Shown here: in pieces, positions 10,962 to 39,601 of the stretch
Layout of the letters: every line of letters begins with the position of its first letter
Numbering within the stretch: the stretch's first letter is position 1
Source of the DNA: Methanofollis aquaemaris
GTDB taxonomy: Archaea > Halobacteriota > Methanomicrobia > Methanomicrobiales > Methanofollaceae
DNA: 64,000 nucleotides
Direction of reading: 5' to 3'
Assembly: GCF_017357525.1 (NCBI RefSeq)
Contig: NZ_CP036172.1
Location: 1,524,561 to 1,588,560 of the forward strand
Notes under the pieces: model-generated
What the model saw: the letters and a program-made list of their open reading frames with translations, nothing else
Told to the model about the DNA's origin: nothing
Database searches by the model: none
Made by a program: the position numbers and the translations under genes

Positions 10962-11133
10962 ATTCCCCCCGCGGGACAAAACGGCGCTCTCAGACAGGGG
11001 GATGAAAAATACCTATCAGTCACCCCCCGGGGAAGAGATGCGGATGTTAAATAAAAAGATTTCTGTCCCATGAGAGAGGTCGCGAGAGGGAAAATTAAAT
11101 ATACCAGAGAGCGAGCCAAACAGTATCAATGAC

Positions 11134-12108
11134 ATGACCCCGGAAGGAAGGGCGCCCGCGGTCTCAGTGGTCGTCCCCCTCTATAACAAGGCCCCATATG
11201 TCAGGCGGGCACTTCAATCCGTCCTATCTCAGACGTTCCAGGACTTTGAAGTGATCGTTGTGGACGACGGTTCCACCGATGGAGGGCACCTCATGGTCGG
11301 AGAGGGGAGTGACTCCAGAGTGAGACTCATCACTCAGGAGAACAAGGGCGCTTCTGCGGCGCGAAACCTTGGAGTCCGCGAGGCGCGAGCCAGGTGGATC
11401 GCCTTCCTTGACGCTGATGACGAATGGTTGCCCACGTTTCTCGCAACCGTGATGAGGCTGCAGGACCGATTCCCCGGGGCCGGCGCTTATGCCACCGCAT
11501 GGATGAAGATAGAGGAAGAAGAGGGGGAGAGATGGCAGGCGACTTACCGGAGGGTGCCGACGCCCCCATGGGAAGGGTACCTTCCCAGTTACTTTCTTGC
11601 CGCCGCAAATGCCGACCAGCCGGTGATCTCGTCGGCGGTGATGGTCCCGAAGGAAGTCATCCTTGAGGTCGGGGGATTTCCGGAGGGAACCCCGGTGGGA
11701 GAAGATGTGATCACCTGGTTCAGGATCGCCCTCACCAGAGAGATCGTCTTCACGTGGGAGGCCGGTGCGGTCTATCATATGGAGGCGACAAACAGAAGTG
11801 CCGATGAGGCACGAAACCCATATTGGACGCATAAAATTATAGATGAAGCACATTCAGCCCTTATGAACGGCCTGGTCCCGAAGAGAAAAGTACCCGAGGT
11901 GAGGGAGTTCATTGCAGGAAAACAGCTCTACCTTGCCTCCTCCATGCTCAGGCAGGGGATGCGGATGGAGGCGCGGGCATATCTTGAAGCATGCGTGACC
12001 GAACGCTTTTCTGCGGAAAAAATGCGTCTCTCCTTCCTGGCAGCCCTGCCCAGCTGGGCCTATCTGGCCCTTTCGGTGGCACACCAGCGGACCCGCGGGC
12101 TGGAGTGA
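11134..12108 (+). CDS. Glycosyltransferase family 2 protein
   Basis: The protein (324 residues) begins with the GT-A fold signature VSVVVPLYNKAPYVRRALQS and continues EVIVVDDGSTDGG. FLDADDEW supplies the metal-binding DxD-type motif. The acceptor-side segment contains VGEDVITWFRIAL. The C-terminal part has no strong transmembrane segment. A TATA-like TTAAATATA lies about 30 bases before the ATG. The gene is divergent from the flippase and convergent with the giant CBM6/PKD gene (62 bases between stops). It probably adds a sugar to a surface glycan; donor and acceptor cannot be told. Confidence 0.92.
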   Translation: MTPEGRAPAVSVVVPLYNKAPYVRRALQSVLSQTFQDFEVIVVDDGSTDGGHLMVGEGSDSRVRLITQENKGASAARNLGVREARARWIAFLDADDEWLPTFLATVMRLQDRFPGAGAYATAWMKIEEEEGERWQATYRRVPTPPWEGYLPSYFLAAANADQPVISSAVMVPKEVILEVGGFPEGTPVGEDVITWFRIALTREIVFTWEAGAVYHMEATNRSADEARNPYWTHKIIDEAHSALMNGLVPKRKVPEVREFIAGKQLYLASSMLRQGMRMEARAYLEACVTERFSAEKMRLSFLAALPSWAYLALSVAHQRTRGLE

Positions 12109-12170: not shown

Positions 12171-15100
12171 CTAAAATGAGAAGAAGGTGAAGGGCCTGTT
12201 CCCCTCATCTCCCACGGTCTGAATTCTCGTTTTCGACGCCTTCCCCTGATTCACCGGATATGTGGCCCTTCCGTCGCTTTTCTCCTCTGTCGGGAGGACG
12301 ATTATCTCGCCCTCTGCTTTAGAGGCACCACCCGGGCCGACGACCGAGAAGGTCACGGTGTAGTTCCCGGGTTCTTCGTATCGGTGGACCGGTGCGGGTT
12401 CAAGAGAGGACGTGCCATCCCCGAAGTCCCAGGCCTGTGCTCTGACATCGCCTTCGATGACGTCGGTGAACTGCACGGTCAGCGGCGCCTCGCCCGAGGT
12501 GACATTCGTCTCGAAGGCGGCGTCCAGGAGTGTGGTTTCGTTGTTCTCATCTACCGGAGTTGTTTCGATGAACTGAACCTCAATGGGGGTGTCGCCCGAT
12601 GTGGGGTCTACACTCTTACTGGCCTTCACGAGATTTGGATCGCCTTTCAAGAACGTTTTCGCGACAGTGTCGCTCCCTGCGCTATTCGTGACGGTGAGTT
12701 TGACCGTATAGTACCCGTAAGGCAGGTCGTAGTAACTATGGGACGGGTTCGGATCAGTCGAGGTCTCGCCGTCGCCGAAGTCCCAGAAGTACGAACGCGG
12801 GAATGTACCGGTACAGTTGTTGGAGAACTGGGTGCCGGGCAGATAATCCATCAGATACGATGCACTGAAATCGGCGGTGGGGGGCTCGGCTTCCCCTCTG
12901 GTGATCTCGAAGGCGTCGATACGCCCGCCACCGTCAGGGAAGGTGAGCCTGAGCACATGCCGGCCTTCAGGGAGATCGATCATCGTGTCAGCCGTCCTGA
13001 AACCTCCATAGATCTTTGGCATCCTCACCTCACCGACTTCGGTGCCATCCACCGAGAGGAGAACAGGTTTTTCTCCGCTCACGGAATCGTGCCCCAGCAT
13101 GAAGGCCGCACGATACCGGCCGGCCTTGGGGATATCGACGGTGTACTCCACCCATTCCCCCGAATATATGGCGTAGATGAAGATGACGCCGTCACGCTCC
13201 AGAAGGTCGACCCCCTCGTCTCTGTACGCCCCGCCCCAGTTCTTGCCGGGATCACTGTCATGATAGGCGACGTCCGCACCGCCAAGGTCGAAGTCCTCGG
13301 CCTCGATACGGCAGGGGACGGTGTGGTTTGTGTACGGCTCCTGGACAGGGTCGGGCGAGACGACGACGATCTCCTTGCTGATGGAGGAGGAGAATAGCGA
13401 ATGGCTGGTGAGCGTGAGCGTCACGATGTGGACGCCGGCGTCGGTGAAGATATGAGTCGGGTTCTCCTCATCTGAACTCCCGCCGTCACCGAAGTCCCAG
13501 GCGTACGAGAACGGCCCCGTGCCGGTGGTCCGGCTGGCGAACCCGACCGCGAGCGGCAGATCGCCGGAAGTCACATTCATCTCGAATTCAGCGCGCGGAG
13601 CCTCCACATCCCCTTTCAGCACTGTGATCGCATCGATGAACATCTCTCCTTCATCAAATGAGAGATCCAGAACCTGTTTCCCTGGAGAATCGATCCGGAA
13701 CTGGTCCGGGAAGGTCTGGAAGATCATATCGTCGAGTTTTCGATACACAGAGACGCTCGCATCCTCCGAACCAGGAGAATGGAGGGTGCATCTTGCCCCG
13801 TGATCGAGAGCATGGGCGTGGAAGACTGCCGTATAGACTCCAGCCTCAGGGACGTCGACGGTGTACCTCACCCACTCGCCGGGCTCGGTGTGGCCAATGG
13901 CGGTGACACCGTCGATCTCGACGAGATCCACATCGTCGGAGCGATAGGTCGAGTTGCCCTGATTCCCTTCGTTTTTATCGTGGTACGCAACCTCTTCACC
14001 ACCCCAATCATAGTCTTCGGCCTCGATACGGCATGGAAGAGTGTGGGTGCGATAGGGTTTCTGGTCGGGTTCGAAGACGGTGATGACGGTGCAGGCCTTC
14101 GAGGTGCTCCCGTCACTGCCGTCGACCGTGAGCCAGACCTCGTACACCCCGGACGTGCCGAAGAGATGGAATGGGTGCTGTTCATCAGACACCTCGCCAT
14201 CACCGAAGTCCCATGACCAGCCGTTCGCGTTGAGCGAGGTGTCGGTGAACTGCACCGCAAGCGGAGGCTCGCCTGAGGTGACGTTTGCCGAGAAATCGGC
14301 CACCGGCGCTGCTGTCCCACCCTTCGTGAAAATGACGGCGTCGGCGTTCACCCACCCCTGCGGGAAGGTGAGGCGGAGCACGTGCGTCCCGGCCGGAAGG
14401 TCGACCTCGGTCTCGACCGTCTTGTAATTACCCCACCCGCCGGTGTTCGGCGAGGTCACCCGACCGACCTCAGTGCCGTCCACCGAGAGGACGCACTCCT
14501 TGCCGGCCTGTGGAGTGGCGAGGAGGAGGGCGGCCGTGTACGTACCTGCCTCCTCGATCTCGACGGTGTACTCAAGCCACTCCCCAGGGTAGGCGTACGA
14601 GGTGGTGACCGCACCGTTCCAGCTTTCGAGGTCGACGTCGTCTGAGCGGTAGTCAGAGTTCCCCTGGTTGCCGGTCTCGGTGTCGTGGTATGCGACGCCC
14701 TCGCCGCCGAGGTCATAATCCTCGGCCTCGATACGACACGGGAGTGCGTGGTTTTTGAAGGGCACCTGCCCACCCTCGCCGGTGACGGTGATCTCATGGC
14801 CGGATGTTCTCAATCCATATGGGCTGTCGACGGTCAGGACCACATGGTACGTCCCCGCTCTGATAAATTCATGGAGCGGGTTTTCTTCGTCGGAAGTCGT
14901 GCCATCGTCGAAATTCCAGGAGTACGAGAACGGCTGAGTCCCGGTGACCCCGCTCGTGAACTGCACTGCAAGGGGTGCCTCGCCTGACGTGACATTCGCC
15001 GATGTCTCTACAGATGGGGGTGACGGGTCTCCCACATACCAGGGAATATGTATGCTGTCGAGGTTCACTCCCCCCTCCGGGAAGGTGACCCGCACCACAT

Positions 15101-18100
15101 GTGTGCCCTCCGGGAGATCGACAAAGATCTCGACCGGTTCGAAGGCACTCCAGTCCCCGGTGTTCAGGGCGGTCACGCGGCCGACCTCGGCGCCGTCCAC
15201 CGAGATGACGCATTCCTTGCCGCTCTGAGGTGTAGCCGCTTCTAGGGTTATCTTGTAGTTTTTGGATTTCTCGATGTCAAGCGTATATTCGACCCACTCT
15301 CCCGGCTCGGTGTGCGAGATGGCCGTTACTTTGCCCCAGGTCGTGAGGTCCACCCCTTCTTCCCGATATGCACCGCCCTGGTTCACTTCAGGGTCGGCGT
15401 CATGGTATGCGACGCCTTCGCCGCCGAGATCATAGTCCTCCGCCTCGATCAGGTAGGGGAAGGACGGGATCTTGAAGGGCGCCTGCCCCTCCGGCGTGGT
15501 GACCGTGATCGCCTGGCTGGTCGAGTTTTTATACCCATAGTTGCCTTCGGCTTCAAATGTCACCGTGTAGATCCCATCCTCGGCGAAGAGATGTTCCATC
15601 TCGTTCTGGTCCTCGATCTCCGGGCTTCCATCGCCGAAATTCCAGGAGGTACTGACGGTACCTTCCGGGGGAACCCCGGTGAACCTGACCGCCAGCGGGG
15701 CCTTGCCCGAGGTGACGTTGGCTTCAAAACTGATTGCACCGAGATCGCGGTCATCGTAGAGATATGTTTCGCGGAGATGTTTTGTTACTTCAGAACTACC
15801 GGCACTGTTCGTGACGGTGAGCGAAATCTTCGGTCTTGAATAATAGTCAAACCTATGACATGGGTTTTCCTCGGTCGATGTCGATCCGTCGTCGAATTCC
15901 CAGAAGTATGTCATGGGATGGGCGCCGGTGGACGTACTCACCAGACGGTATGGGGCAATCCCGGGAGTGCGCCCGAACTCATAAAGCCGTTTCATTTCAA
16001 AGTCCGCAACCGGCGGTTCCACCGCGGCCCCTCTGGTAAAAGTGACGGCATCGAGATTCACTCCTCCCTCAGGGAAGGCGAACCTGAGCACGTGCTGGCC
16101 GGCAGGGAGATCGACCACCGCATCGACGCTCCTGAAGGCCTCTCCCGGGTCTGCCAGCATGGCAGGCACCTTCACCGCCTCTGCGCTGTCTACCGAGAGG
16201 GTGCAGTGTTTTACGAGACCATATTCTTCCGGATTGTCCGGGACCATATGGAAGGTCGCCATATACTCGCCGGCTTCAGTGATGTTCACGGTGTACTCCA
16301 CCCACTCAAGCGGGGCGGTATCCATGATCGCGACCGCTCCGCCCATCTCACCGAGGTCCACATCGTCGGAGCGATAGGTCGAATCGCCCCGGTTCCCGGG
16401 TCCGGCGTCATAATATGCGATGCACTCATCACCCAGGTCATAGTCCTCGGCCTCGATACGGCATGGAAGAGTATGGTTCTTGAATGGATACCGGGCCTGA
16501 CCCGGCGGGGTTACGGTGATCTCCTTGAGGGCGATTTCATCAAACATACCACATTTTGCCTCAAGTTTCACTACGTAGACCCCCGGATTCTCAAAGACAT
16601 GGACCGGATGCTGCTCGGTCGAAGTCCCGCCGTCTCCGAAGTACCACCGCCAGGCTGTTGCATGGGGAGAGTGATCGGTGAACTGTACTGCTAGCGGTGC
16701 CTCGCCGGAGGTGATATTACGCGTGAAATTCGCGATAGTCCTGGGATTGCCGACACGGACACAATTTTCGCGAATGATGGTATTCTCACCGGCCGCGTTC
16801 TGGACGGTGAGTCTCACCGAGTAATGCCCCTCTTCGACATACCTATGCCGTGGGTTTTCTTCTTCGGAAGTGCTCCCATCGCCAAAGTCCCAGGTATGGG
16901 TGAGCGGCGGCGTGCCGGTGGAATGGCTCGTGAAGCAGACGGTATGCGGTACATGGCCTGAGATGAAAGTTGCCGAGAAGTTCGCGACCGGCGCCTCCAG
17001 ATCCTCCTTCGTGAAGATGACGGCATCGGCGTTCACCCACCCCTGCGGGAAGGTGAGGCGGAGCACATGCGTCCCGGCCGGGAGATCGACAGAGGTCTCG
17101 ACCATCTCATAGGTGCCCCACCCGCCGGTGTTCGGCGAGGTCACTCTCCTGACCGCGGTGCCGTCCACCGAGAGGACGCACTCTTTGCCGGCCTGCGGCG
17201 TCGCGAGGAGGAAGCCAGCCGTGTACCTTCCGGTCTCTTCGATATCGACGGTGTACTCCAGCCACTCGCCCGGATAGGCGTACGAGGTGGTGACCGCACC
17301 GTTCCAGCCTTCAAGATCGACATCGTCGGAACGATAATCTGAATTGCCCTGGTTGCCGGCCTCGGTGTCGTGGTACGCGATCCCCTCGCCACCCAGGTCG
17401 TAGTCCTCGACCTCAATGCGGCCCGGGAGAGTGTGGTCCTTGAATGGCGTCTGGCCCCCTTGACCGGTGACGATGATCTCGTCCTCCGTAGATGCGGTGC
17501 CGCCCGGACCGGTGACGGTCAGGGTGACCGTGTAGGTGCCGGCGTCCTCGTAGACATGCACCGGATGATCTTCATCTGAGGCCTCACCATCGCCGAATGT
17601 CCAGGCACACTCGGTCGCATGGAGCGAGGTGTCGGTGAACTGCACCGAAAGCGGTGCTTCGCCGGAGGTGGGGTCCGCGGTGAAACTCGCGACCGGTTGC
17701 TGATACCCGACCACGATCAGGTCTTCACGCACGAGCATATCCTCGCCAGCCCCGTTGCTTACCGTGAGCGTCACCGAATACGTACCCTCCCCGGCATAGA
17801 GATGCACCGGATTTTCTTCGGTTGAAGTCCCACCGTCCCCGAACTCCCAGGAGTACGTGAGCGGCGGGGTGCCGGTGCACTGGCTCATGAACTGGACGGC
17901 AAGTGGCGGAGCACCTGCAGTGACGTTTGCCGAGAAGTCCGCGACCGGTGCCGCCGGACCCTCCTTCGTGAAGGTCAGAGCATCGGTGTTCACCCACCCC
18001 TGCGGGAAGGTGAGGCGGAGCACATGCACCCCGGCCGGGAGATCGACAGAGGTCTCGACCTTCTCGTAGGTGCCCCAACTTCCGGTATTCCGCGAGGTCA

Positions 18101-19318
18101 CCCTTCCAACCTCAGTGCCGTCCACCGAGAGGACGCACTCCTTACCGTTCTGCGGGGTGGCGAGGAGGAAACCGGCCATGTACCTCCCGGCCTCATCAAT
18201 GCGAACGGTGTATTCCAGCCACTCGCCAGGGAAGGCGTACGAGGTTGTGACCGCACCGTTCCAGCCCTCGAGGTCGACATCGTCGGAACGATAATCTGAA
18301 TTGCCCTGGTTACTGACCTCGGTGTCGTGGTATGCGATTCCCTCGCCGCCGAGGTCGTAGTCCTCGGCCTCGATGCGGCCCGGGAGAGTGTGGTCCTTGA
18401 AGGGCGTCTGGCCCCCTTCGCCGGTGACGACGATCTCGTCCTCCGCAGAGGCAGTGCCGCCCGGACCGGTGACTGTCAGGGTGACCGTGTAGATGCCGGT
18501 GTCCTCGTAGACATACACCGGATGATCTTCATCTGAGGTCTCACCATCGCCGAATGTCCAGGCACATTCGGTCGCGTGGAGCGAGGTGTCGGTGAACTGC
18601 ACCGAAAGCGGGGCCTCACCTGAAGTGGGATCCGCCGTGAAACTCGCGACCGGTTTCTGGTACCCGACCACGATCAAGTCGTCGCGGACGAGCGTGTCCT
18701 CGCCGGCCTCGTTCCTGACTGTGAGCGTCACCGGATACGTGCCGTCGGTGGCATAGAGATGTATCGGATTTTCCTCAGTTGAATTCTCGCCGTCACCGAA
18801 CTCCCATGAGTACGTGAGCGGCGGGGTGCCGGTCGAGGTGCTTGTGAACTGGACGGCAAGCGGCGGAGCACCTGAGGTGATGTTCGCCGAGAAGTCCGCG
18901 ACCGGCGCCGCAGGCCCCTCCTTCGTGAAGGTGACGGCGTCGGCGTTCACCCACCCCTGCGGGAAGACGACGCGGAGCACATGCGTCCCGGCCGGCAGGT
19001 CGACCCCGGTCTCAATCGTCTCGTAGGTGCCCCACCCACCGGTGTTCGGTGCGGTCACTCTCCCGACCACGACGCCGTCCACCAAGAGGATGCACTCCTT
19101 GCCGGCCTGCGGCGTCGCGAGGCTGAAACCAGCCGTGTACCTCCCGGCCTCCTCGATCTCGACAGTGTACTCGAGCCACTCACCAGGATAGGCGTACGAG
19201 GTAGTGATTGCGCCATCCCAGAATTCAAGGTCGACGTCCTCGGAACGGTAGTCAGAGTTACCCTGGTTCCCGGTCTCGGTGTCGTGGTACGCCACTCCCT
19301 CACCACCGAGGTCATAGT
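12171..19318 (-). repeat. Internal superblock 2 of the giant gene (duplicate with two extra units)
   Basis: Modules lie at about 19318, 18361, 17404, 16447, 15436, 14728, 14018 and 13303. The spacings are about 957, 957, 957, 1011, 708, 710 and 715, then about 1132 to the stop codon. The types run A-A-A-B-C-(A-E)-D. This repeats superblock 1 with two additional units of about 710 bases inserted between C and D. DNA identity is still high at the end of each block: about 12290-12560 and 19440-19710 align almost base for base at an offset of roughly 7150. Confidence 0.85.
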
Positions 19319-22300
19319 CCTCGGCCTCGATGCGGCCGGGGAGGGCGTGGTCCTTGAAGGGCGTCTGGCCGGCACTGGATGCAAGGACGACGATCTTCTC
19401 CTGAGGGAAGAAGGAACCTTCACTTTCCTTCTCCCCAGCAGGGAGGACGATGATCTCGCCCTCCACTTTAGAGGCCCCACCCGGGCCGACGACCGTGAAG
19501 GTCACGGTGTAGTTCCCGGGTTCTTCGTACCGGTGGACCGGTGCGGGTTCGAGAGAGGACGTGCCATCCCCGAAGTCCCAGGCCTGCGCCCTGACATCGC
19601 CTTCGATGACGTCGGTGAACTGTACTGTCAGCGGCGCCTCGCCCGACGTGACGTTTGTCTCGAACGCGGCGTCCAGGATTGCGGTTTCGTTGTTCTCATC
19701 TACCGGAGTTGTTTCGATGAACCGGACCTCAATAGGTGTGTCGCCTGAGGTGGGGTACGCACTCTTGCTGGCCTTCATGATACTTGAATAGCCTCTCAAG
19801 AACGTTTTCGCGACGGTGTCGCTCCCTGCACTATTCGTGACGGTGAGTTTCACCGTATAATATCCATATGGCATGCCGAGGTAACTGTGGAACGGGTTAG
19901 GCTCAGTCGAGATCTCGCCGTCGCCGAAGTCCCAGAAGTACGAACGCGGGAACGTACCGGTACAGTTGTTGGAGAACTGGATGCTGCTCAGATCATCGTG
20001 CAGAGTATATGCACTGAAATCAGCAACCGGAGGCTCGTCCTCTCCTCTTGTGAGATAAAAGGCGTCGATACTACCTGCGCCTTCCGGGAATGTCAGCCGC
20101 AACACATGCCTGCCGGCCGGCAGTTCGATCTCGCCGCCATAGACTATCTCAAGGGAATCTTCGGCTCCGGTGTTCGGGCAGACGATCCGCACGATCTCTG
20201 AACCATCCATCGAAAGGATGCACTCTTTCCCGTCCTCAAGGGCCGCCAGGTTGAAGGACGTCATGTACGTCCCGGCAACCGGGATATCGACAGTATACTC
20301 CAGCCACTCTCCCGGATCAATAGAATAGACAGATTCCCCCCACCAGTCAATGTCCACACCCTCGGTTCGCCTGTGGTACGATCCACCCTGATTTACTTCA
20401 GGATCGCTGTCATGGTAGGCGACCCCTTCGCCACCCACATCAAAGTCTTCGGCCTCGATGCAACAGGGGAGTTCGTGATGTTTGTAAGGAGCCTGGCCAT
20501 CCTCGGCGACGGCGGTGATCTGAAGAACGTCTGGGGTGGATCCATACCGATTCTCAACAGTCAGGATCACATCGTATGTCCCTGCCCGGGTGAACTGATG
20601 GACGGGGTTCTCCTCCTCGGAAGTTATACCGTCACCGAAATCCCAGGAGTACGAGAACGGTTGAGTTCCGGTGAAATTGCTCGTGAACTGTACTGTCAGG
20701 GGTGCTTCGCCCGAGGTGACGTTCGCCGTGGCCCTCCCCATCGGTCGTGTACTATCTCCCCGATCAAACCTGATTCTGTCGAGGTTCACCTCTCCCTGGG
20801 GAAATGTGACTCTCAGGATATGTTTGCCTTCCGGGAGATCGACAAAGATCTCGACCGGTTCGAAAGCACTCCAGGTGCCGGTGTTGGGTGCCGTCACGCG
20901 GCCGACCTCGGTGCCGTCCACCGAGAGGACGCACTCCTTCCCGCTCTGTGGAGTGGCCACATCGAATATAACTTTGTAGTTCTTCGATTCACGGATGTCA
21001 AGAGTGTACTCGACCCACTCTCCGGGTTCCGTATGTGAGATGGCCGTAACCTTGTCCCAGGTCGTGAGGTCCACGCCTTCCTCTCTGTACGCACCGCCCT
21101 GATTTACCCCCGGGTCGGTGTCATGGTAGGCGACGCCCTCGCCGCCGAGGTCATAGTCCTCCGCCTCGATACGAGAGGGAGTATAGGGAGGGAGATACCG
21201 GTCTTTAAAGGGTAACTGCCCCTCCGGGGTGGTGACCGTGATCATTTTGGTGGTCGAGTTGCCACGCCCATAGGTGCCTCTGGCCCCGAATCTCACCTCA
21301 TATGTCCCATGATCGGTGAAGACATGCTCCAACTCATTCTGGTTCTCGATCTCCGGAGTGCCGTCACCGAACCACCAGTAGGTACTGACAGCGCCCGCCG
21401 GCGGATCCCCAGTGAACCTGACCGCAAGCGGGGCCTCGCCGGAGGTTACGTTGGCCTCGAAACTGATCTCGCCAAGGCCTGGCTCACGATGATAAAGACT
21501 TTTAGTTATCTCAGAACTGCCTGCACTGTTCGTTACAGTGAGTGTGATCTGATAATCCGGAGCTCCTTCTCCATCATAGAACACAGTATGCGGATTATCC
21601 ACCGTACATGTCGTTCCATCACCATAATCCCAGAAGTAAGTCATGGGATGGGTGCCGGTGGATGTGCTCACCAGACTGTACGCATCGGTACAGGGATCAG
21701 TAGGTACATTAAGAAATTTCACTTCAAAGTCCGCGACCGGCGGTTCCACCGTGCCCCGCCTGGTTAAGGTGACGGCGTCGAGATTCACTCCTCCCTCAGG
21801 GAAGGCGAACCTGAGCACATGCCGACCTTCAGGGAGATCGACCACCGCATCGACGCCATGGAAGGTCTCTCCGGGTTCGGCCATCATGGCAGGTACCTGC
21901 ACCGCCCCTGACCCATCTACCGAGAGAATGCAGTGTTTTACGATGTAATATTCATCGGGATCGTCGGGGACCATGTGGAAGGTCGCCATATATTCGCCGG
22001 CTTCCGGGATCTCAACGGTGTACTCCGCCCACTCGAGCGGGTTGGTATCCACGATCGCGACTGCCCCGTCCATCTCCCCGAGGTCGACATCGTCGGAGCG
22101 GTAGGTCGAATCGCCCCGGTTTCGGGGCTCGGCGTCATAATATGCGACGTAATCCCCACCGAGATCATAATCCTCGGCCTCGATGCGGCATGGAAGAGTA
22201 TGGTTCTTGAACGGATGCTGGGCCTGACCTGCCGGAGAGACGGTGATCTCCTTGATAACAGAAGCGGGATAGTAACCGCTTGAGGTCTCAAGTTTCACCG

Positions 22301-25300
22301 CGTAGAATCCCGGGATCTCATAGACATGGACGGGGTGTTGTTCGGTCGAAGTACCTCCGTCTCCGAAGTACCACCGCCAACCGGCCGGATAGTCGGAGGT
22401 ATCGGTGAACTGTACCGCAAGGGGTGCTTCTCCAGAGGTGACATTACAGGTAAAATCCGCGACAATCCTGGCATCACCGACATGAACATAGTTTTCGCGG
22501 ATGGTGGTGTTTTCACCGACCTCGTTTTCGACCGTGAGTCTCACCGAGTAGTACCCCTCGTCAACATAGACATGCTCTGGATTCTCTTCGTCAGAAGTAC
22601 CCCCGTCGCCGAAGTCCCAGGCATAGGTCAGCGGCGGCGTGCCGGTGGAATCGCTCCAGAACCGCACGGTAAGCGGCGGATCGCCATATGGGTATCCCGC
22701 CGTGAATAGTGCAACCGGTGCCTCCAGATTCTCTTTCGTGAAGGTGACAGCATCGGTGTTCACCCACCCCTGCGTGAAGGTGAGACGGAGCACATGCACC
22801 CCGACCGGGAGATCGACCTCGGTCTCGACCGTCTCATAGGTGCCCCACCCACCGGTATTCGGCGAGGTCACCCGTCCGACCTCGGTACCGTCCACCGAGA
22901 GGACGCACTCCTTACCGTTCTGCGGGGTCGCGAGGAGGAAGCCAGCGGTGTACCTTCCGGCCTCTTCGATGTGGACAGTGTACTCGAGCCACTCGCCGGG
23001 ATAGGCGTACGAGGTGGTGACCGCACCGTTCCAGCCTTCAAGGTCGACGTCGTCGGAGCGGTAGTCCGAGTTGCCCTGGTTCCCAGCCTGGGTGTCGTGG
23101 TATGCAACGCCCTCGCCGCCGAGGTCGTAGTCCTCGGCCTCGATACGGCCGGGGAGGGCGTGGTCCTTGAAGGGCGTCTGCCCCCCTTCGCCGGTGACGA
23201 TGATCTCGTCCTCAGCAGAGGCGGTGCCGCCCGGACCGGTGACCGTCAGAGAGACCGTGTGGGTGCCCGGGTTCTCGTAGAGATGCACCGGATTTGCATC
23301 GGTTGAAGTATCGCCGTCACCAAATGTCCAGGCACATTCGGTTGCGTGGAGCGAGGTGTCGGTGAACTGCACCGTCAAGGGTACCTCACCTGAGGTGGGG
23401 TCCGCGGTGAAGCTCGCAACCGGTTGCTGGTACCCGACTACGACGAGATCCTCACGGACGACCGTGTCCGCGCCGGCCTCGTTCTGCACCGTGAGCGTCA
23501 CCGTGTACGTCCTCTCCTCGGCATAGAGATGCACCGGATTGGGATCGGTTGAGGTCTCGCCGTCACCGAACTCCCACGAGTAGGCGAGCGGCGGGGTGCC
23601 GGTGCAGTGGCTCGTGAACTGGACAGCAAGTGGCGGAGCACCTGAGGTGACGTTCGCCAAGAAGTCCGCGACCGGTGCCGCCGGGCCTTCCTTCGTAAAG
23701 GTGACGGCGTCGGCGTTCACCCAGCCCTGCGGGAAGGTGAGACGGAGCACATGCGTCCCGGCCGGGAGATCGACTTCGGTCTCGACTGTCTCATAGATGC
23801 CCCAGCCACCGGTGTTCGGCGAGGTCACCCTCGCAACATCTGAACCGTCCACCGAGAGGATACACTCCTTGCCGTTCTGCGGCGTCGCAAGACTGAAGAT
23901 AGCGGTGTACCTCCCGGCCTCATCGATGTGGACGGTGTACTCCAGCCACTCGCCGGGATACGCGTACGAGGTCGTGACCGCACCGTTCCAGCCTTCAAGG
24001 TCGACGTCGTCCGAGCGGTAGTCCGAGTTACCCTGGTTGCCCGCCTCGGTGTCATGGTACGCGACCCCCTCGCCACCTAGGTCATAGTCTTCGGCCTCGA
24101 TCCGGCCGGGGAGGCCGTGGTTCTTGAAGGGCGTCTGGCCGTCCTCGCCGGTGACGAGAATCTCGTCCTCCGCAGAGGCAATGCCGCCCGGACCGGTGAC
24201 GGTCAGGGTGACCGTGTAGGTGCCAGGACTCTCGTAGACATGCACCGGATTTTCCTCTGTCGAAGTCTCGCCGTCACCAAATGTCCAGGCGCATTCGGTC
24301 GCGTGGAACGAGGTGTCGGCGAACTGTACCGAAAGCGGCGCCTCACCGGAAGAGGGGGCCGCCGTGAAACTCGCAACCGGTTGCTGGTACCCGACCACGA
24401 TCAGGTCGTCGCGGACGAGCGTGTCCTCGCCGGCCTCGTTCCTGACTGTGAGCGTCACCGGATACGTGCCATCAGTGGCATAGAGATACACCGGATTTTC
24501 TTTGGTTGAAGTCCCACCGTCCCCGAACTCCCAGGAGTATGTGAGCGGCGGGGTGCCGGTGGAGTCGCTTGTGAACTGCACCACTAGAGGCGGTTCACCA
24601 GAGGTGACGTTCGCCGAGAAGTCCGCGATCGGTGCCGCCGGACCCTCCTTCGTGAAGGTGATGGCGTCGGCGTTCACCCACCCCTGCGGGAAGGTGAGCC
24701 TGAGCACATGCATCCCGGCTGGCAGGTCGACCTCGGTCTCGACTGTCTCGTAGGTACCCCAACTCCCGGTATTCCGCGAGGCCACACGTCCGACTTCGGT
24801 GCCGTCCACCGAGAGGACGCACTCCTTGCCTTCCTGCGGAGTGGCGAGGATGAAACCGGCCGTATATATGCCATCTTCTGGGATGTCGACGGTGTACTCC
24901 AGCCACTCGCCGGGGTAGGCATACGAGGTGGTGACCGCACCGTTCCACTCCTCGAGGTCGACGTCGTCGGAGCGGCAGTCGGAGTTGCCCTGGTTGCCGG
25001 CCTCGGTGTCGTGGTACGCCACTCCCTCCCCGCCGAGGTCATAGTCCTCGGCCTCGATACGGCACGGGAGTGCATGGGTCTTGAAAGGCGTCTGCCCGCC
25101 GCCGGGTGCGAGGACCGTGATCTCCTCCTGCGCAGAAGCAGTGCCCCCCGGACCGGTGACCGTGAGTTTCACGGTGTAGATGCCGGGACTGGTATAGGTG
25201 TGGGCCGGATCCTGCCCGGTCGAAGTACCGCCGTCACCGAAGTTCCACTGCCAGGCGGTTGCATGGCGGGAGGTGTCGGTGAACTGCACCGAAAGCGGCG

Positions 25301-27107
25301 CCTCGCCGGAGGTGACATTCGCCGTAAAACCAGCCAGGGGTGCGGGATGGCCGACCTCAATCAGGCCCTCGTGGATGACGGTGTCGCTCCCGGCACTGTT
25401 GGTCGCCGTGAGCCGTACGGTGTAGGTGCCCTCCTCGACATAGACATGCACCGGATTTTCCGCAATCGAAGTCCCGCCGTCGCCGAACTCCCAGGCATAC
25501 GTGAGGGGCCCGGCGCCGGTCACCTGGCTGGTGAAGCGGACTGCAAGTGGCGGGGCGCCGGTGGTGACATTCGCCGCGAAATCCGCCACAGGCGCCGCCG
25601 GACCAACCTTTGTGATCTCAAATGAGTCCAGGTTCAGACCGCCACCCATCGTGACCCTTATCACATGGCGGCCCTCGGAAAGGGCGATCGCAGCAGGCGT
25701 CTCCACGGTGGTGAAGCCTGACCATCCGTTCTTCGGCGCCCTCACCGTTGCCCCACGCACACCGTCCACTGCGAGATCCAGGCTCTGACCTTCCAGGTCT
25801 GAAGTCATTCTGAAAGAGAAGAGATAGTTCCCGGCGTCGGAGACGTCCACCGTATATTCCAGCCACTCCCCTCTCGCGGTGTAGCCGACATTGACGACCC
25901 CGATGCTCTCCCATCTCTCGATATCCACATCGTCACTCCTGAAGGCACCTCCCTGGTTCCCCCTGGTGGCGTCATGGTAGGCGACACCCTCGCCACCATA
26001 GTCGTACTCCTCGGCCTCCACCCGGCAGGGAACCGTCCGCGCCACATAGGGTTCTGACTGACCACCGGTCACGACGACATACTCATTCTTCACCTCACCT
26101 GCAGTCCCGAACTCATTGGTGACCTTGAAAGAGACCGTGTAGCGGCCTGGAGATGAGTAGGTGTGCTCGGGATCTTTTCCGGTTGCATCAGTGACCCCGT
26201 CCCCGTTAAAGTCCCAGGCATACTCAAAAGGGGGTGTTCCCCCCGGGCTCCCGGTGAACCTGACTTTGAGCGGGGCCTTTCCATTCCGTGGATCCGCGGT
26301 AAAATCTGCCGACGGGATTGAAGGCCTTGGTAAGGCAGAAGAGAGAACCTCGTACCACCGGTCGGCCATCTTCTTCTCTCCCTGGTGGTTGGGATGAAGG
26401 TGATCCCTGAGGTCGGTGCCGACATTAAACCCGGAATTCTGGTCGACAAGTATGACCCTGGACTGAGATGTGTCCAGAGATTCTACCAGACCCGGGATCT
26501 CTGCATTGTATGCATCCACATATTGTGTGTAGAACGAAAACTTCATCGGGATGATCTCTGCGATGTAGACGGTGACCCTCGGATTGTACTCCCTGAGAAT
26601 CCCGACGACCGCCCTGAGATCCTCGACGGTCTCATTGGCCACCTTCACAGGGGACTTGGGATAGCCCTGCTGGAGGAGGTCGTTGGTGCCCAGGTGGATG
26701 AGCACATGGTCGGGTGTATCCCCCCTCGTCTTGAGGGTGTCCAGCCAGACCGAGAGGTTCCCGTTCTGAGGTTCGTACTCAGCGTTCCCAAAGGCAACAT
26801 GATCTGTCCGCCACCCGGGTCGCCCCTCATTGTCCTTATCAAAATCAAGTTGGAAATCCGGGCCCGGCCGGGTTCCGACAAAATTCACCTCATAACCATT
26901 CTCATTCAACAGGTTCCATAGGTGATACCGATAACTCGGATAATTTACACCACTCTGCTCGTCGATCGCCCCGGCCGTAACCGAATCACCCAGAGGCAGG
27001 ATCTTCGTCTCATCACCTGCCGCCGAGACCATTCCGACGACAACAATACTGAATAGAACTAGCGATAACAAAATAAAACGTCTCGTAACCCGTCCCCCCA
27101 TAGACAT
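12171..27107 (-). CDS. Giant secreted SGNH-esterase / multi-CBM6 / multi-PKD surface protein
   Basis: From the ATG at 27107 the product is 4978 residues, roughly 0.5 MDa by estimate. Residues 1-30 form a signal peptide (basic start, hydrophobic core, cut near VSAAG). Residues 35-255 form an SGNH hydrolase domain with all blocks: Ser42 in LPLGDSVTAG, Gly98 in GRPGW, Asn142 in HLGTND, and Asp235/His238 in RDHLHPN. The rest alternates 15 CBM6-like carbohydrate-binding modules (RIEAEDYDLGGEGVAYHD type) with about 27 PKD domains (WDFGDG type). The order shows an internal block duplication. There is no C-terminal membrane helix and no PGF-CTERM-like sorting tail, so attachment is unclear. An in-frame GTG at 27215 would add 36 residues ahead of the signal peptide, but a strong TATA box inside that stretch argues against it. 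The likely role is an extracellular esterase-adhesin acting on acylated polysaccharide (inference). Confidence 0.9.
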   Translation of the reverse strand: MSMGGRVTRRFILLSLVLFSIVVVGMVSAAGDETKILPLGDSVTAGAIDEQSGVNYPSYRYHLWNLLNENGYEVNFVGTRPGPDFQLDFDKDNEGRPGWRTDHVAFGNAEYEPQNGNLSVWLDTLKTRGDTPDHVLIHLGTNDLLQQGYPKSPVKVANETVEDLRAVVGILREYNPRVTVYIAEIIPMKFSFYTQYVDAYNAEIPGLVESLDTSQSRVILVDQNSGFNVGTDLRDHLHPNHQGEKKMADRWYEVLSSALPRPSIPSADFTADPRNGKAPLKVRFTGSPGGTPPFEYAWDFNGDGVTDATGKDPEHTYSSPGRYTVSFKVTNEFGTAGEVKNEYVVVTGGQSEPYVARTVPCRVEAEEYDYGGEGVAYHDATRGNQGGAFRSDDVDIERWESIGVVNVGYTARGEWLEYTVDVSDAGNYLFSFRMTSDLEGQSLDLAVDGVRGATVRAPKNGWSGFTTVETPAAIALSEGRHVIRVTMGGGLNLDSFEITKVGPAAPVADFAANVTTGAPPLAVRFTSQVTGAGPLTYAWEFGDGGTSIAENPVHVYVEEGTYTVRLTATNSAGSDTVIHEGLIEVGHPAPLAGFTANVTSGEAPLSVQFTDTSRHATAWQWNFGDGGTSTGQDPAHTYTSPGIYTVKLTVTGPGGTASAQEEITVLAPGGGQTPFKTHALPCRIEAEDYDLGGEGVAYHDTEAGNQGNSDCRSDDVDLEEWNGAVTTSYAYPGEWLEYTVDIPEDGIYTAGFILATPQEGKECVLSVDGTEVGRVASRNTGSWGTYETVETEVDLPAGMHVLRLTFPQGWVNADAITFTKEGPAAPIADFSANVTSGEPPLVVQFTSDSTGTPPLTYSWEFGDGGTSTKENPVYLYATDGTYPVTLTVRNEAGEDTLVRDDLIVVGYQQPVASFTAAPSSGEAPLSVQFADTSFHATECAWTFGDGETSTEENPVHVYESPGTYTVTLTVTGPGGIASAEDEILVTGEDGQTPFKNHGLPGRIEAEDYDLGGEGVAYHDTEAGNQGNSDYRSDDVDLEGWNGAVTTSYAYPGEWLEYTVHIDEAGRYTAIFSLATPQNGKECILSVDGSDVARVTSPNTGGWGIYETVETEVDLPAGTHVLRLTFPQGWVNADAVTFTKEGPAAPVADFLANVTSGAPPLAVQFTSHCTGTPPLAYSWEFGDGETSTDPNPVHLYAEERTYTVTLTVQNEAGADTVVREDLVVVGYQQPVASFTADPTSGEVPLTVQFTDTSLHATECAWTFGDGDTSTDANPVHLYENPGTHTVSLTVTGPGGTASAEDEIIVTGEGGQTPFKDHALPGRIEAEDYDLGGEGVAYHDTQAGNQGNSDYRSDDVDLEGWNGAVTTSYAYPGEWLEYTVHIEEAGRYTAGFLLATPQNGKECVLSVDGTEVGRVTSPNTGGWGTYETVETEVDLPVGVHVLRLTFTQGWVNTDAVTFTKENLEAPVALFTAGYPYGDPPLTVRFWSDSTGTPPLTYAWDFGDGGTSDEENPEHVYVDEGYYSVRLTVENEVGENTTIRENYVHVGDARIVADFTCNVTSGEAPLAVQFTDTSDYPAGWRWYFGDGGTSTEQHPVHVYEIPGFYAVKLETSSGYYPASVIKEITVSPAGQAQHPFKNHTLPCRIEAEDYDLGGDYVAYYDAEPRNRGDSTYRSDDVDLGEMDGAVAIVDTNPLEWAEYTVEIPEAGEYMATFHMVPDDPDEYYIVKHCILSVDGSGAVQVPAMMAEPGETFHGVDAVVDLPEGRHVLRFAFPEGGVNLDAVTLTRRGTVEPPVADFEVKFLNVPTDPCTDAYSLVSTSTGTHPMTYFWDYGDGTTCTVDNPHTVFYDGEGAPDYQITLTVTNSAGSSEITKSLYHREPGLGEISFEANVTSGEAPLAVRFTGDPPAGAVSTYWWFGDGTPEIENQNELEHVFTDHGTYEVRFGARGTYGRGNSTTKMITVTTPEGQLPFKDRYLPPYTPSRIEAEDYDLGGEGVAYHDTDPGVNQGGAYREEGVDLTTWDKVTAISHTEPGEWVEYTLDIRESKNYKVIFDVATPQSGKECVLSVDGTEVGRVTAPNTGTWSAFEPVEIFVDLPEGKHILRVTFPQGEVNLDRIRFDRGDSTRPMGRATANVTSGEAPLTVQFTSNFTGTQPFSYSWDFGDGITSEEENPVHQFTRAGTYDVILTVENRYGSTPDVLQITAVAEDGQAPYKHHELPCCIEAEDFDVGGEGVAYHDSDPEVNQGGSYHRRTEGVDIDWWGESVYSIDPGEWLEYTVDIPVAGTYMTSFNLAALEDGKECILSMDGSEIVRIVCPNTGAEDSLEIVYGGEIELPAGRHVLRLTFPEGAGSIDAFYLTRGEDEPPVADFSAYTLHDDLSSIQFSNNCTGTFPRSYFWDFGDGEISTEPNPFHSYLGMPYGYYTVKLTVTNSAGSDTVAKTFLRGYSSIMKASKSAYPTSGDTPIEVRFIETTPVDENNETAILDAAFETNVTSGEAPLTVQFTDVIEGDVRAQAWDFGDGTSSLEPAPVHRYEEPGNYTVTFTVVGPGGASKVEGEIIVLPAGEKESEGSFFPQEKIVVLASSAGQTPFKDHALPGRIEAEDYDLGGEGVAYHDTETGNQGNSDYRSEDVDLEFWDGAITTSYAYPGEWLEYTVEIEEAGRYTAGFSLATPQAGKECILLVDGVVVGRVTAPNTGGWGTYETIETGVDLPAGTHVLRVVFPQGWVNADAVTFTKEGPAAPVADFSANITSGAPPLAVQFTSTSTGTPPLTYSWEFGDGENSTEENPIHLYATDGTYPVTLTVRNEAGEDTLVRDDLIVVGYQKPVASFTADPTSGEAPLSVQFTDTSLHATECAWTFGDGETSDEDHPVYVYEDTGIYTVTLTVTGPGGTASAEDEIVVTGEGGQTPFKDHTLPGRIEAEDYDLGGEGIAYHDTEVSNQGNSDYRSDDVDLEGWNGAVTTSYAFPGEWLEYTVRIDEAGRYMAGFLLATPQNGKECVLSVDGTEVGRVTSRNTGSWGTYEKVETSVDLPAGVHVLRLTFPQGWVNTDALTFTKEGPAAPVADFSANVTAGAPPLAVQFMSQCTGTPPLTYSWEFGDGGTSTEENPVHLYAGEGTYSVTLTVSNGAGEDMLVREDLIVVGYQQPVASFTADPTSGEAPLSVQFTDTSLHATECAWTFGDGEASDEDHPVHVYEDAGTYTVTLTVTGPGGTASTEDEIIVTGQGGQTPFKDHTLPGRIEVEDYDLGGEGIAYHDTEAGNQGNSDYRSDDVDLEGWNGAVTTSYAYPGEWLEYTVDIEETGRYTAGFLLATPQAGKECVLSVDGTAVRRVTSPNTGGWGTYEMVETSVDLPAGTHVLRLTFPQGWVNADAVIFTKEDLEAPVANFSATFISGHVPHTVCFTSHSTGTPPLTHTWDFGDGSTSEEENPRHRYVEEGHYSVRLTVQNAAGENTIIRENCVRVGNPRTIANFTRNITSGEAPLAVQFTDHSPHATAWRWYFGDGGTSTEQHPVHVFENPGVYVVKLEAKCGMFDEIALKEITVTPPGQARYPFKNHTLPCRIEAEDYDLGDECIAYYDAGPGNRGDSTYRSDDVDLGEMGGAVAIMDTAPLEWVEYTVNITEAGEYMATFHMVPDNPEEYGLVKHCTLSVDSAEAVKVPAMLADPGEAFRSVDAVVDLPAGQHVLRFAFPEGGVNLDAVTFTRGAAVEPPVADFEMKRLYEFGRTPGIAPYRLVSTSTGAHPMTYFWEFDDGSTSTEENPCHRFDYYSRPKISLTVTNSAGSSEVTKHLRETYLYDDRDLGAISFEANVTSGKAPLAVRFTGVPPEGTVSTSWNFGDGSPEIEDQNEMEHLFAEDGIYTVTFEAEGNYGYKNSTSQAITVTTPEGQAPFKIPSFPYLIEAEDYDLGGEGVAYHDADPEVNQGGAYREEGVDLTTWGKVTAISHTEPGEWVEYTLDIEKSKNYKITLEAATPQSGKECVISVDGAEVGRVTALNTGDWSAFEPVEIFVDLPEGTHVVRVTFPEGGVNLDSIHIPWYVGDPSPPSVETSANVTSGEAPLAVQFTSGVTGTQPFSYSWNFDDGTTSDEENPLHEFIRAGTYHVVLTVDSPYGLRTSGHEITVTGEGGQVPFKNHALPCRIEAEDYDLGGEGVAYHDTETGNQGNSDYRSDDVDLESWNGAVTTSYAYPGEWLEYTVEIEEAGTYTAALLLATPQAGKECVLSVDGTEVGRVTSPNTGGWGNYKTVETEVDLPAGTHVLRLTFPQGWVNADAVIFTKGGTAAPVADFSANVTSGEPPLAVQFTDTSLNANGWSWDFGDGEVSDEQHPFHLFGTSGVYEVWLTVDGSDGSTSKACTVITVFEPDQKPYRTHTLPCRIEAEDYDWGGEEVAYHDKNEGNQGNSTYRSDDVDLVEIDGVTAIGHTEPGEWVRYTVDVPEAGVYTAVFHAHALDHGARCTLHSPGSEDASVSVYRKLDDMIFQTFPDQFRIDSPGKQVLDLSFDEGEMFIDAITVLKGDVEAPRAEFEMNVTSGDLPLAVGFASRTTGTGPFSYAWDFGDGGSSDEENPTHIFTDAGVHIVTLTLTSHSLFSSSISKEIVVVSPDPVQEPYTNHTVPCRIEAEDFDLGGADVAYHDSDPGKNWGGAYRDEGVDLLERDGVIFIYAIYSGEWVEYTVDIPKAGRYRAAFMLGHDSVSGEKPVLLSVDGTEVGEVRMPKIYGGFRTADTMIDLPEGRHVLRLTFPDGGGRIDAFEITRGEAEPPTADFSASYLMDYLPGTQFSNNCTGTFPRSYFWDFGDGETSTDPNPSHSYYDLPYGYYTVKLTVTNSAGSDTVAKTFLKGDPNLVKASKSVDPTSGDTPIEVQFIETTPVDENNETTLLDAAFETNVTSGEAPLTVQFTDVIEGDVRAQAWDFGDGTSSLEPAPVHRYEEPGNYTVTFSVVGPGGASKAEGEIIVLPTEEKSDGRATYPVNQGKASKTRIQTVGDEGNRPFTFFSF
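19318..25048 (-). repeat. Internal superblock 1 of the giant gene (six CBM6 units)
   Basis: Taking the codons for IEAE as the marker of each CBM6 module, successive modules lie at about 25048, 24091, 23131, 22171, 21159 and 20447, and the next block begins at 19318. The spacings are about 957, 960, 960, 1012, 712 and 1129 bases. The module types run A-A-A-B-C-D, judged from sequences such as GNQGNSDYRSDD (A), NRGDSTYRSDD (B) and NQGGAYREEG (C). The block closes with a PKD unit ending VHRYEEPGNYTVTF. Confidence 0.85.
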
Positions 27108-27121
27108 TGAATGTGAGGGGA

Positions 27122-27142
27122 GATATTTATTATAATATATAA
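27122..27142 (-). promoter_or_regulatory. Promoter TATA box of the giant surface-protein gene
   Basis: The minus strand reads TTTATATATTATAATAAATA here, a strong archaeal TATA element in an AT-rich stretch. Its centre is 25-31 bases upstream of the ATG at 27107. Transcription would therefore start at or within a few bases of the start codon, giving a leaderless mRNA. No Shine-Dalgarno-like sequence precedes this ATG. Confidence 0.6.
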
Positions 27143-27353
27143 ATATTCCCAGATCGTTTGATCGTTCTGTGGAATTAAAAGAAATATAATAAAATAATAT
27201 CCATAAATATTCCACCTAATATGGATAAGGCCAATAAAGTAATTCAAATGGAGAATTTAAGAATTTTTGATAATATCTATCCGAGCCAAGATCGCCGGAA
27301 TGCATATATATAGAGAACTTCTCTCAAAGGGTGATCCTGACGGGGGAGACGAG

Positions 27354-28280
27354 GTGGAGAGAGATAAAGTCGCCATTCTGATCATCAACTGGAACGGTAA
27401 GGAAGACACGCTGGAATGCATCAGGTCACTGCAGGAGCAGGACTACCCGGCATGCGAGATCATCGTCATCGACAACGGATCGATCGACGGTTCGGCCGAT
27501 GCCTTCAGGGCCATCGAACCGCCGATTAATCTTATTGAGAGCGAAAAAAACCTGGGATTCGCAGGCGGGATCAATCTCGGGGTTACCTATGCGATGGAGC
27601 ACGGGATGCCCTACACACTCATCTACAACAACGACACCATCGCCGATCCCAGGATGGTCCGCAGCCTGGTTGAGATCCTGGAATCAGATCCGACTGTGGG
27701 GATCGTCACCGGCAAAGTCTATGACTACTATATTCCGGACCGGCTCCTTGTGGTGGGCAAAAAAATCAACTTCTCCACCGGCCGGATGTTTAATGAAGGG
27801 TATTCAGAGACCGACCGGGGACAGCACGACGAAATACGCGAATACTCATATATCGACGGGGTCTTCTGGCTTTCAAGGACCGAGGTCTTTCAGACAGTCG
27901 GGTTCTTCGATACCAGTTATTTCTATCAGTTCGAAGAAGTGGACTTCTGTGCCCGGGCAAACAAGCACTACCGGATCCTCTACACCCCACACGCAAAGAT
28001 ATGGCACAAAGGAGGAAAAAGCGTCGGCGGACGCAAGAGTCCGACTGAGGTCTACTACTTTGCCAGGAACAAGTTCATCTTCATGCGCCGGTATGCCACA
28101 CAACGACAGTTCCTGACATTTCTCCTCCACCAGGTTCTGGTGGACAACCCCAGAGAACTCGGTGGGGCCCTGATAAAAGGGCGGTTTAACACACTTCTAC
28201 CGCAAATCCGGGGAGTTGCGGACGGGGTCCGCAAGGCAAAAATGGAATCCCCGTCCATTCCCGGAAAATATGGGGGATGA
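27354..28280 (+). CDS. Glycosyltransferase family 2 protein (rhamnosyltransferase-like)
   Basis: The catalytic domain starts VAILIINWNGKEDTLECIRS, followed by IIVIDNGSIDGS and NLGFAGGINLG. The NND in YNNDTIADP serves as the DxD-type metal site. The later segment IDGVFWLSRTEVFQTVGFFD with YFYQFEEVDFCARA is typical of the GT2 group that includes rhamnosyltransferases. I prefer the GTG at 27354 because GGGGGAG lies five bases before it and the domain starts at once. An ATG at 27300 would add 18 unconserved residues. The gene is divergent from the giant CBM6/PKD gene and convergent with the beta-helix/CBM6 gene, so it belongs to the surface-glycan region. Donor sugar is unknown. Confidence 0.9.
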   Translation: MERDKVAILIINWNGKEDTLECIRSLQEQDYPACEIIVIDNGSIDGSADAFRAIEPPINLIESEKNLGFAGGINLGVTYAMEHGMPYTLIYNNDTIADPRMVRSLVEILESDPTVGIVTGKVYDYYIPDRLLVVGKKINFSTGRMFNEGYSETDRGQHDEIREYSYIDGVFWLSRTEVFQTVGFFDTSYFYQFEEVDFCARANKHYRILYTPHAKIWHKGGKSVGGRKSPTEVYYFARNKFIFMRRYATQRQFLTFLLHQVLVDNPRELGGALIKGRFNTLLPQIRGVADGVRKAKMESPSIPGKYGG

Positions 28281-31300: not shown

Positions 31301-31589
31301 TGTCTTCGCCTGAACCCATGAGCGTTGTTCCCGGTGCCATTTTGATACTGCCGTCAGAGTTGTACGTCCCGGCAGCAAGGTGAACCGTGCCACCGTTCCC
31401 GGCCGCGTTGAGCGCGTTCGTAATCTCGATCTGGTCAGATTTTCCGTCACAGACATAGTCTGCCTGTGTCTTTGCATCCTGCGAACTGTCAGAGGCGGCC
31501 ACATTGAGCGTGGCAGCACTGACCGCAGGCGCCAGACATATGAGCACTGACGCCAGGAGCAGGAGGCGCAACATTGATCTATTGTTCAT
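28314..31589 (-). CDS. Secreted parallel beta-helix protein with four CBM6 modules
   Basis: The 1091-residue protein has a signal peptide (1-25, ending PAVSA). A right-handed parallel beta-helix domain spans about 27-470, with repeated short strands such as VSNITYENCKAIRCGANDNS and VKNVVFENCTSKDNGIR and the start DQIEITNALNAAGNGGTVHL. A Pro/Thr/Asp linker (PTPTPTPDPNPDPNPEP) follows, then four CBM6-like modules (about 499-1091). Each module opens like VEAEDYDQGGEGVAYHDTDA and ends near GSLNLDKI. Beta-helix domains of this type are often polysaccharide lyases, hydrolases or epimerases, but I cannot point to a certain catalytic site. GAGG precedes the ATG by eight bases. The CBM6 modules resemble those of the giant protein, suggesting the same target polymer. 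Confidence 0.9.
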   Translation of the reverse strand: MNNRSMLRLLLLASVLICLAPAVSAATLNVAASDSSQDAKTQADYVCDGKSDQIEITNALNAAGNGGTVHLAAGTYNSDGSIKMAPGTTLMGSGEDKTRIDIRGTWDGVFANENTHLEGFTISGQGAVWIQYSHVSVQSVTVTGDTRMNGGFTVWCPGHDLTDISFKDCTAIDLTWTGFNIDATSAGLKVSNITYENCKAIRCGANDNSHPWTAGFIFAEHNDLENALIKDCYAEDNWESGFHIEPAPAVKNVVFENCTSKDNGIRKQARFPESDTQRDMNLIFGAGFFLNNGVTVKDCTAIGNHHGFMIWSSNGAKFENCYSKDSEASDYFLIHWNGFNSPNVFTNCVSENAGGYAIDASNTNDVRFENFKIINAEGVDGSMIRLGKYYPAIGRDLPCQNSYFDLTVEGGPENILYSHYGVNDVIEGTATGNYAENPFKIVSPSSGVDTSGLVIKKSTDPVDPTPTPTPDPNPDPNPEPVERHTLPGTVEAEDYDQGGEGVAYHDTDAVNEGGEYRKDGVDIEYWEKTGATTIAYAYPGEWLQYSVNVTEAGTYDVDFTVASAMNGQSVKVLIDGEEIAAVEAPNTGSWGTFTTVKKSFDLSAGDHTLKVAFDGSLNLDKIAFVQNTSSGSNPDNGSGSEAGTAVPGTIEAEDYDEGGEDVAYHDTDAVNEGGDYRQDGVDIESWKTSGVTTIAYAFPGEWLQYTIDVAEAGTYDVAFTVASAMNGQSMKVLVDGKEVETVTSPNTGSWGTFTTVKKNIDLPAGKHIIRIVFDGSLNFDKMVLSASDSSGSNPGEKTAIALPGTFEAEDYDEGGEGVAYHDTDAVNEGGDYRKDGVDIENWEKTGVTTIAYAYAGEWLQYTVDVAEAGTYDVAFTVASAMNGQSMKVLVDGKEVGTVTSPNTGSWGTFTTVKKSLELPAGEHAIRIVFDGSLNLDKVAVTAGQESVSFTIQAEDYDEGGEGVAYHDRDVENRGGAYRTDGVDIESWKDSGVTTIAYAFPGEWLQYTVDVPRAGTYDAEFVVASAMSGQSMKVLVDGKEVGTVTSPNTGSWGKFTTVKKSIALPAGEHAIRMAFGGSLNLDKFSFASTSGS

Positions 31590-34115: not shown

Positions 34116-34137
34116 GCCCCCAAGAAGGATGTGGGGG

Positions 34138-34178
34138 GATATAAATCCTCTCACCCAGGAGGCACAAAACATATATAT
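34138..34178. promoter_or_regulatory. Divergent promoters between beta-helix and acetyltransferase genes
   Basis: The minus strand carries GGATTTATATC at 34138-34148, which is 24-30 bases before the beta-helix ATG at 34115. The plus strand carries ATATATAT at 34171-34178, which is 26-33 bases before the acetyltransferase ATG at 34204. Both spacings are those of archaeal TATA boxes driving short-leader or leaderless transcripts. Confidence 0.5.
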
Positions 34179-34203
34179 GACCGCAGGAGGATAAGGGCTC
34201 ACG

Positions 34204-39589: not shown

Positions 39590-39601
39590 GGTATCGTTCC
39601 T

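Follow-up and report, generated by a model that had tools for sequence, protein, structure and literature searches.

A giant, putatively secreted protein with a CE3-type esterase domain and alternating CBM6 and PKD modules in a methanogen polysaccharide locus: a candidate editor of the cell's own exopolysaccharide

Introduction

Giant proteins have been described from archaea before (PMC4378361, PMC11573180). In the portion of the published account drawn on here, halomucin of Haloquadratum walsbyi, with 9159 aa and a mucin-like character, is a giant secreted protein that is loosely associated with the cell exterior, showing that such a protein can form a loose hull (PMC4378361). The protein described here would resemble it as a giant secreted archaeal protein in loose association with the cell exterior, but it is built from an esterase, CBM6 modules and PKD modules. 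A survey of huge archaeal proteins (PMC11573180) set its threshold at 5000 aa, just above the length of the present protein, which falls into a similar length class. The commonest giant architectures in that survey use Laminin_G_3 and Big domains, and PKD goes unmentioned in its text.

The building blocks of the present protein, CE3, CBM6 and PKD, are likewise known families. Its esterase domain is similar in sequence and fold to CtCes3-1 (PDB 2vpt) and to the CE3 enzyme of Talaromyces cellulolyticus (PDB 5b5s) and keeps the SGNH residues intact, but it sits on a 43-module protein encoded in a methanogen polysaccharide locus. The CBM6 modules resemble xylan binders. They are alike in sequence and fold to the CBM6 of the Clostridium thermocellum GH5_34 arabinoxylanase (PDB 2y8k, 5la2), with matching cleft-A residues in 8 modules; however, the present protein carries 15 copies, 5 of them without the aromatic pair. 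The PKD modules are similar, again by sequence and fold, to those of archaeal surface-layer proteins (PDB 1l0q). Unlike proteins of that type, the giant protein has neither a beta-propeller nor an anchor, and its PKD modules alternate with CBM6 and are joined to an esterase. Our literature searches turned up no description of the present protein. How hydrogen-consuming methanogens build a matrix and stay near their syntrophic partners is poorly understood at the level of genes, and the locus examined here offers a concrete hypothesis in which enzyme, binder and synthesis genes stand together.

Results

The window analysed here is a stretch of 64,000 nucleotides (contig C1:1524561-1588560) from the single-contig, 2.75-Mb genome of Methanofollis aquaemaris (G000; completeness 99.8%). 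An initial annotation, made from the sequence alone, had taken the host for a methanogen, in agreement with two mcrA-type genes in the genome and with genes for cysteate synthase and sulfopyruvate decarboxylase, which belong to coenzyme M biosynthesis, inside the window. It had also described one uninterrupted 15-kb ORF, and the minus-strand frame 12171..27107 is indeed open throughout its 4978 codons. The longest possible frame (12171..27215, 5014 aa) uses an upstream GTG start. In the ortholog alignment homology starts at (M)GG-VTRR, which supports a start at or near 27107 and thus a product of 4978 aa, with a calculated mass of 538 kDa, a calculated pI of 4.3 and 36 N-glycosylation sequons.

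In the translated ORF, Pfam identified a GDSL lipase domain together with 27 PKD_4 and 13 CBM6 stretches. A second parse, partly circular in that its profiles came from modules of this same protein, agrees with Pfam and gave 1 esterase, 15 CBM6 and 27 PKD modules, the same numbers of CBM6 and PKD that the initial annotation had counted (15 and about 27). In a genome-wide Pfam scan, 12 CBM6 matches in the giant ORF were above the cut-off and one was just below it, and W-x-F/Y-x-DG motifs (PKD core WxFGDG) occur 26 times in this ORF. The esterase is followed by a PKD and then by CBM6 modules spaced by one or two PKDs. All on the minus strand, the protein thus consists of a signal peptide (aa 1-30; 27018..27107), the CE3/SGNH esterase domain (aa 31-258; 26334..27017), a first PKD, CBM6 module C1 and a PKD pair (aa 259-665; 25113..26333, from the own-module parse), a block A with CBM6 modules C2-C7 and their PKDs (aa 671-2579; 19371..25097, delimited by the parse, module trees and block comparison), a block B with C8-C15 and their PKDs (aa 2580-4937; 12297..19370), which pairs with the C2-C9 tract of the related genome G027, and a hydrophilic C-terminal tail (aa 4938-4978; 12174..12296), which lacks an anchor as judged by hydrophobicity and tail comparison.

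Both sequence and modelled fold place the SGNH domain in carbohydrate esterase family 3, the acetyl esterases. By sequence it matches PDB 2vpt with E 7.8e-17 (residues 33-254) and 5b5s with E 1.3e-12. The three best PDB folds for its AlphaFold2 model (pLDDT 80, pTM 0.85) are the CE3/acetyl esterases 5b5l, 5b5s and 2vpt, with TM scores of 0.64-0.71. The residues earlier proposed as catalytic (Ser42, Gly98, Asn142, Asp235 and His238) lie at exactly these positions and are invariant across seven homologs, and a dN/dS of 0.12-0.21 indicates purifying selection on the domain. By analogy with known CE3 enzymes the domain would remove acetyl groups, family membership being no proof of acetyl specificity.

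To classify the CBM6 modules, triad columns were set by alignment to PDB chain 2y8k and by the published correspondence of cleft-A residues, namely Tyr34/Trp92/Asn120 in CtGH11-CBM6 and Trp424 and Phe478 in CtGH5-CBM6 (PMC10284105). The Tyr/Trp/Asn triad is complete in 8 of the 15 modules (C1-C4, C8-C10 and C13), two more (C6 and C12) have His/Trp/Asn, and the aromatic pair is gone from the other five (C5, C7, C11, C14 and C15). As judged by cleft A, about half of the modules therefore look binding-competent. The initial description of sugar-binding CBM6-like modules is right as to the family, but with five modules devoid of the cleft-A aromatic pair it is unlikely that all of them are binders. 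The same triad classes recur, module for module, in the orthologs from G027 and from a second relative, G062, indicating that the degenerate classes are probably conserved rather than the result of random decay.

The signal peptide is the only strongly hydrophobic segment of the giant protein, and neither a PGF- or LPXTG-like sorting tail nor a C-terminal hydrophobic anchor was found in it, as the initial annotation had claimed for the membrane anchor and PGF-CTERM. By eye, the C-terminal tails of the G027 and G062 orthologs show no anchor or sorting tail either. Export by the Tat pathway was considered on account of the conserved TRR motif and rejected, as the genome yields no TatC, while 11 of 14 control genomes give a TatC match. 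We infer from the lack of TatC that the protein is exported by Sec. Given that there is no hydrophobic anchor or sorting tail, it is plausible that the protein would be retained on the cell by binding of its CBM6 modules to glycan.

Behind the presumed start codon stand 6-7 G in a row, in the window (27094-27101) as well as at the orthologous starts in loci L052, L054 and L055. G6 or G7 is present behind the start codon in three species, and in the relative G015 the ATG does not share the reading frame of the gene. We do not claim phase variation through this poly-G run, since ATGGGGGG is about as frequent in the window as expected by chance, and the gene of G015 has decayed in any case. The run could be a Shine-Dalgarno-like feature, a site of slippage or a chance occurrence.

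The giant gene stands alone between two GT2 glycosyltransferase genes on the plus strand, one convergent (11134..12108) and one divergent (27339..28280). Next to the convergent gene lies a gene for a polysaccharide flippase-like membrane protein (9357..10979, minus strand). On the other side follow a secreted right-handed beta-helix protein (28314..31589, minus strand), which is a conserved neighbour and has 4 CBM6 modules with their binding residues kept, a second right-handed beta-helix protein (32457..34232, minus strand), for which no PDB relative was found by sequence, an EpsC/serine-acetyltransferase-like hexapeptide acetyltransferase (34204..34821, plus strand; 150.3 bits with the EPS_EpsC model against a cut-off of 150), and a DUF2206 membrane protein with three GT4-type glycosyltransferases (35180..40741, minus strand). 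All 17 CBM6 matches of the genome fall in the giant ORF and the adjacent beta-helix protein. The locus is syntenic, with its order kept in G027 and, across the stretches examined, in G062 and G015. This conserved linkage to glycan assembly genes identifies the giant protein as a protein of an exopolysaccharide locus.

The acetyltransferase of the locus carries IPHP at the place where a DH motif stands in true serine acetyltransferases. The enzyme is possibly an exopolysaccharide O-acetyltransferase, and it could act on serine instead. Beside the locus lies a gene for a large histidine kinase with multiple PAS domains and a receiver at its C-terminus (5643-9245 of the window, minus strand), which is adjacent in G027 and G015 too and is a candidate regulator.

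Of 12 genomes from the genus, 7 have both CE3 and a close homolog of the acetyltransferase, and 5 have neither (one-sided Fisher p 0.0013, ignoring phylogeny). Across 150 genomes of the order, 7 of the 8 occurrences of the acetyltransferase coincide with CE3, a count that likewise ignores phylogeny; CE3 occurs without this acetyltransferase in G068 and G116, and the acetyltransferase without CE3 in G052. In G021 the two genes lie on separate contigs, and in G003 and G009 they are about 15 kb apart. The co-occurrence test is confined to one genus, and the same pattern would result if the locus were present or absent as a whole; the flippase also follows it fairly well.

In the congeners G003 and G009, proteins of 1863 aa and 1034 aa, respectively, have CE3 followed by tandem CBM6, and so does a protein of a Methanoregulaceae-like MAG (locus L066); in contrast to the giant protein, they have no PKD and are smaller. 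PKD proteins of 3000-4000 aa occur in other archaea of the phylum, with up to 3989 aa among the matches listed for 393 genomes. Full-length CBM6-PKD-PKD units were present, among these listed matches, in M. aquaemaris and G027 only; G062, which is not listed there, has them too. With the profiles used, none of the 79 named CE3 loci examined had PKD modules in the same frame. A single-protein scan of named genomes gave no match, and an alignment scan returned mainly bacterial CE3 proteins. The initial annotation had regarded both architecture and scale as new. The alternation of CBM6 and PKD behind a CE3 domain was in fact seen only in this species group; however, CE3-(CBM6)n proteins without PKD and PKD proteins of 3000-4000 aa exist, and the size of the present protein amounts to one block duplication on a shorter form.

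The genome of M. aquaemaris is rich in large PKD surface proteins, with 93 PKD matches across many ORFs, and its second-largest PKD ORF encodes 2820 aa (near C1:1146567). Within the same order, G068 is unusually rich in CE3 and CBM6, having at least 26 CBM6 matches, 8 CE3 copies and CBM6 ORFs of up to 3296 aa.

Discussion

On balance, and with modest confidence, we favour the view that the giant protein is secreted and multivalent, and that it both de-O-acetylates and cross-links the exopolysaccharide of its own cell, the glycan made by the surrounding locus. It would be an unanchored, modular matrix protein whose N-terminal CE3 esterase strips O-acetyl groups from this glycan, while the 15 CBM6 modules on their PKD spacers bind it at many points. 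Such multipoint binding would keep the esterase on the cell surface in the absence of a membrane anchor and at the same time cross-link strands. The neighbouring hexapeptide acetyltransferase would add the acetyl groups, and the same polymer would be the substrate or ligand of the beta-helix proteins. The number of modules would set reach and avidity and would change by duplication or deletion of whole blocks. Acetyl specificity, the self-glycan as substrate, retention by CBM binding and cross-linking are what we infer here. Shaping of the own glycan coat had been one of several options in the initial annotation; it is now the best supported of them owing to the locus context left unused there, that is, the flippase, GT2, GT4, DUF2206 and acetyltransferase genes. 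On the other side, the gene is dispensable, given that it is a pseudogene in G015 while the locus persists, and the CBM6 modules resemble xylan binders.

A more far-reaching proposal, which we put forward tentatively and consider rather less probable, is that the acetyltransferase, a secreted multivalent deacetylase/cross-linker with a module number that evolution can tune by gain and loss of blocks, and beta-helix partners bearing binding modules of like kind form a self-contained archaeal acetylation-editing system that controls the stickiness of the methanogen and its aggregation with partners. Natural length variants at one place in four species, with 15, 9, 6 and no functional CBM6 tract, are available for a comparison of aggregation.

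The CBM6 tract might instead serve as an adhesin for foreign polysaccharide, by which the methanogen would hold on to plant fibres or to the glycans that coat fermenting partners. In that case the esterase would help to expose acetylated xylan, and the gain would be closeness to producers of hydrogen or formate. Such a role would fit with degraders of plant cell walls being the best-known source of CE3 and CBM6, and with the presence of C. thermocellum enzymes among the nearest solved relatives. Floc formation with methanogens has been reported, and a Methanoculleus gene for a PKD-domain protein is upregulated under motion (PMC12008871), which also points in this direction. However, the gene lies within a conserved polysaccharide synthesis locus, where every CBM6 of the genome is located, a search of the genus that covered GH10, rather than other xylanase families, found no GH10 xylanase, and there is no visible anchor to keep a fibre-bound protein on the cell. 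We therefore consider this role unlikely.

Still lower we rank the possibility that the protein is mainly a structural or protective sheath in the manner of halomucin, with a minor or vestigial esterase. Its extreme length, acidity (calculated pI 4.3), 36 N-glycosylation sequons and lack of an anchor would suit a sheath, as would the five CBM6 copies without binding residues, and halomucin provides the precedent for a loose hull in the available portion of its description (PMC4378361). Yet a vestigial esterase would hardly be expected to show purifying selection (dN/dS 0.12-0.21) and invariance of all catalytic residues, and CE3-CBM6 fusions recur without PKD. In addition, halomucin is mucin-like, and neither CE3 nor CBM6 is reported for it in that portion of the source.

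At the same locus, the orthologs of the giant gene, with its 15 CBM6 and 27 PKD, are of different length. G027, the closest relative with a sequenced genome, has 9 CBM6 and 16 PKD in a frame of 3091 codons. G062 has 6 CBM6 and 12 PKD in a frame of 2279 codons, a count that repeat collapse in this fragmented assembly could have lowered, and the G015 pseudogene has a CE3 frame that is still open, followed by stop-riddled remnants. Although the gene is highly repetitive, varies in length between species and is decayed in G015, it is most improbable that the ORF was joined up in assembly or is undergoing decay, since its longest exact repeat is 66 bp, blocks A and B share 80.6% DNA identity and have diverged further (dS 0.60) than from G027 (0.27-0.32), dN/dS is about 0.2, with all segments that were compared across species or across blocks falling within 0.12-0.37, the genome is a single contig, and syntenic orthologs have the same architecture.

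The growth of the gene by block duplication can be reconstructed from its relatives, making it a clear case among giant archaeal genes. In module trees, block B (C8-C15) pairs with the G027 tract. Blocks A and B are separated by a dS of 0.60, block B and G027 by one of 0.27, and for the CE3 domain dS is 0.32 between M. aquaemaris and G027 and about 1.06 to G062. A recent duplication in M. aquaemaris alone was rejected on these grounds. In the simplest history, a stretch of about 1,900 codons would have been duplicated in tandem once, after the split from G062 and before that between M. aquaemaris and G027, and G027 would have lost the additional block again; recombination between alleles that had diverged may be an alternative to duplication plus loss. 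Within genomes, modules C2-C4 and C8-C10 seem to have undergone partial homogenisation. In G003, the CE3-CBM6 gene (L056:3712-9300) contains near-identical CBM6 copies, an in-frame stop near its 3' end and an exact repeat of 752 bp, which indicates that expansion is recent there.
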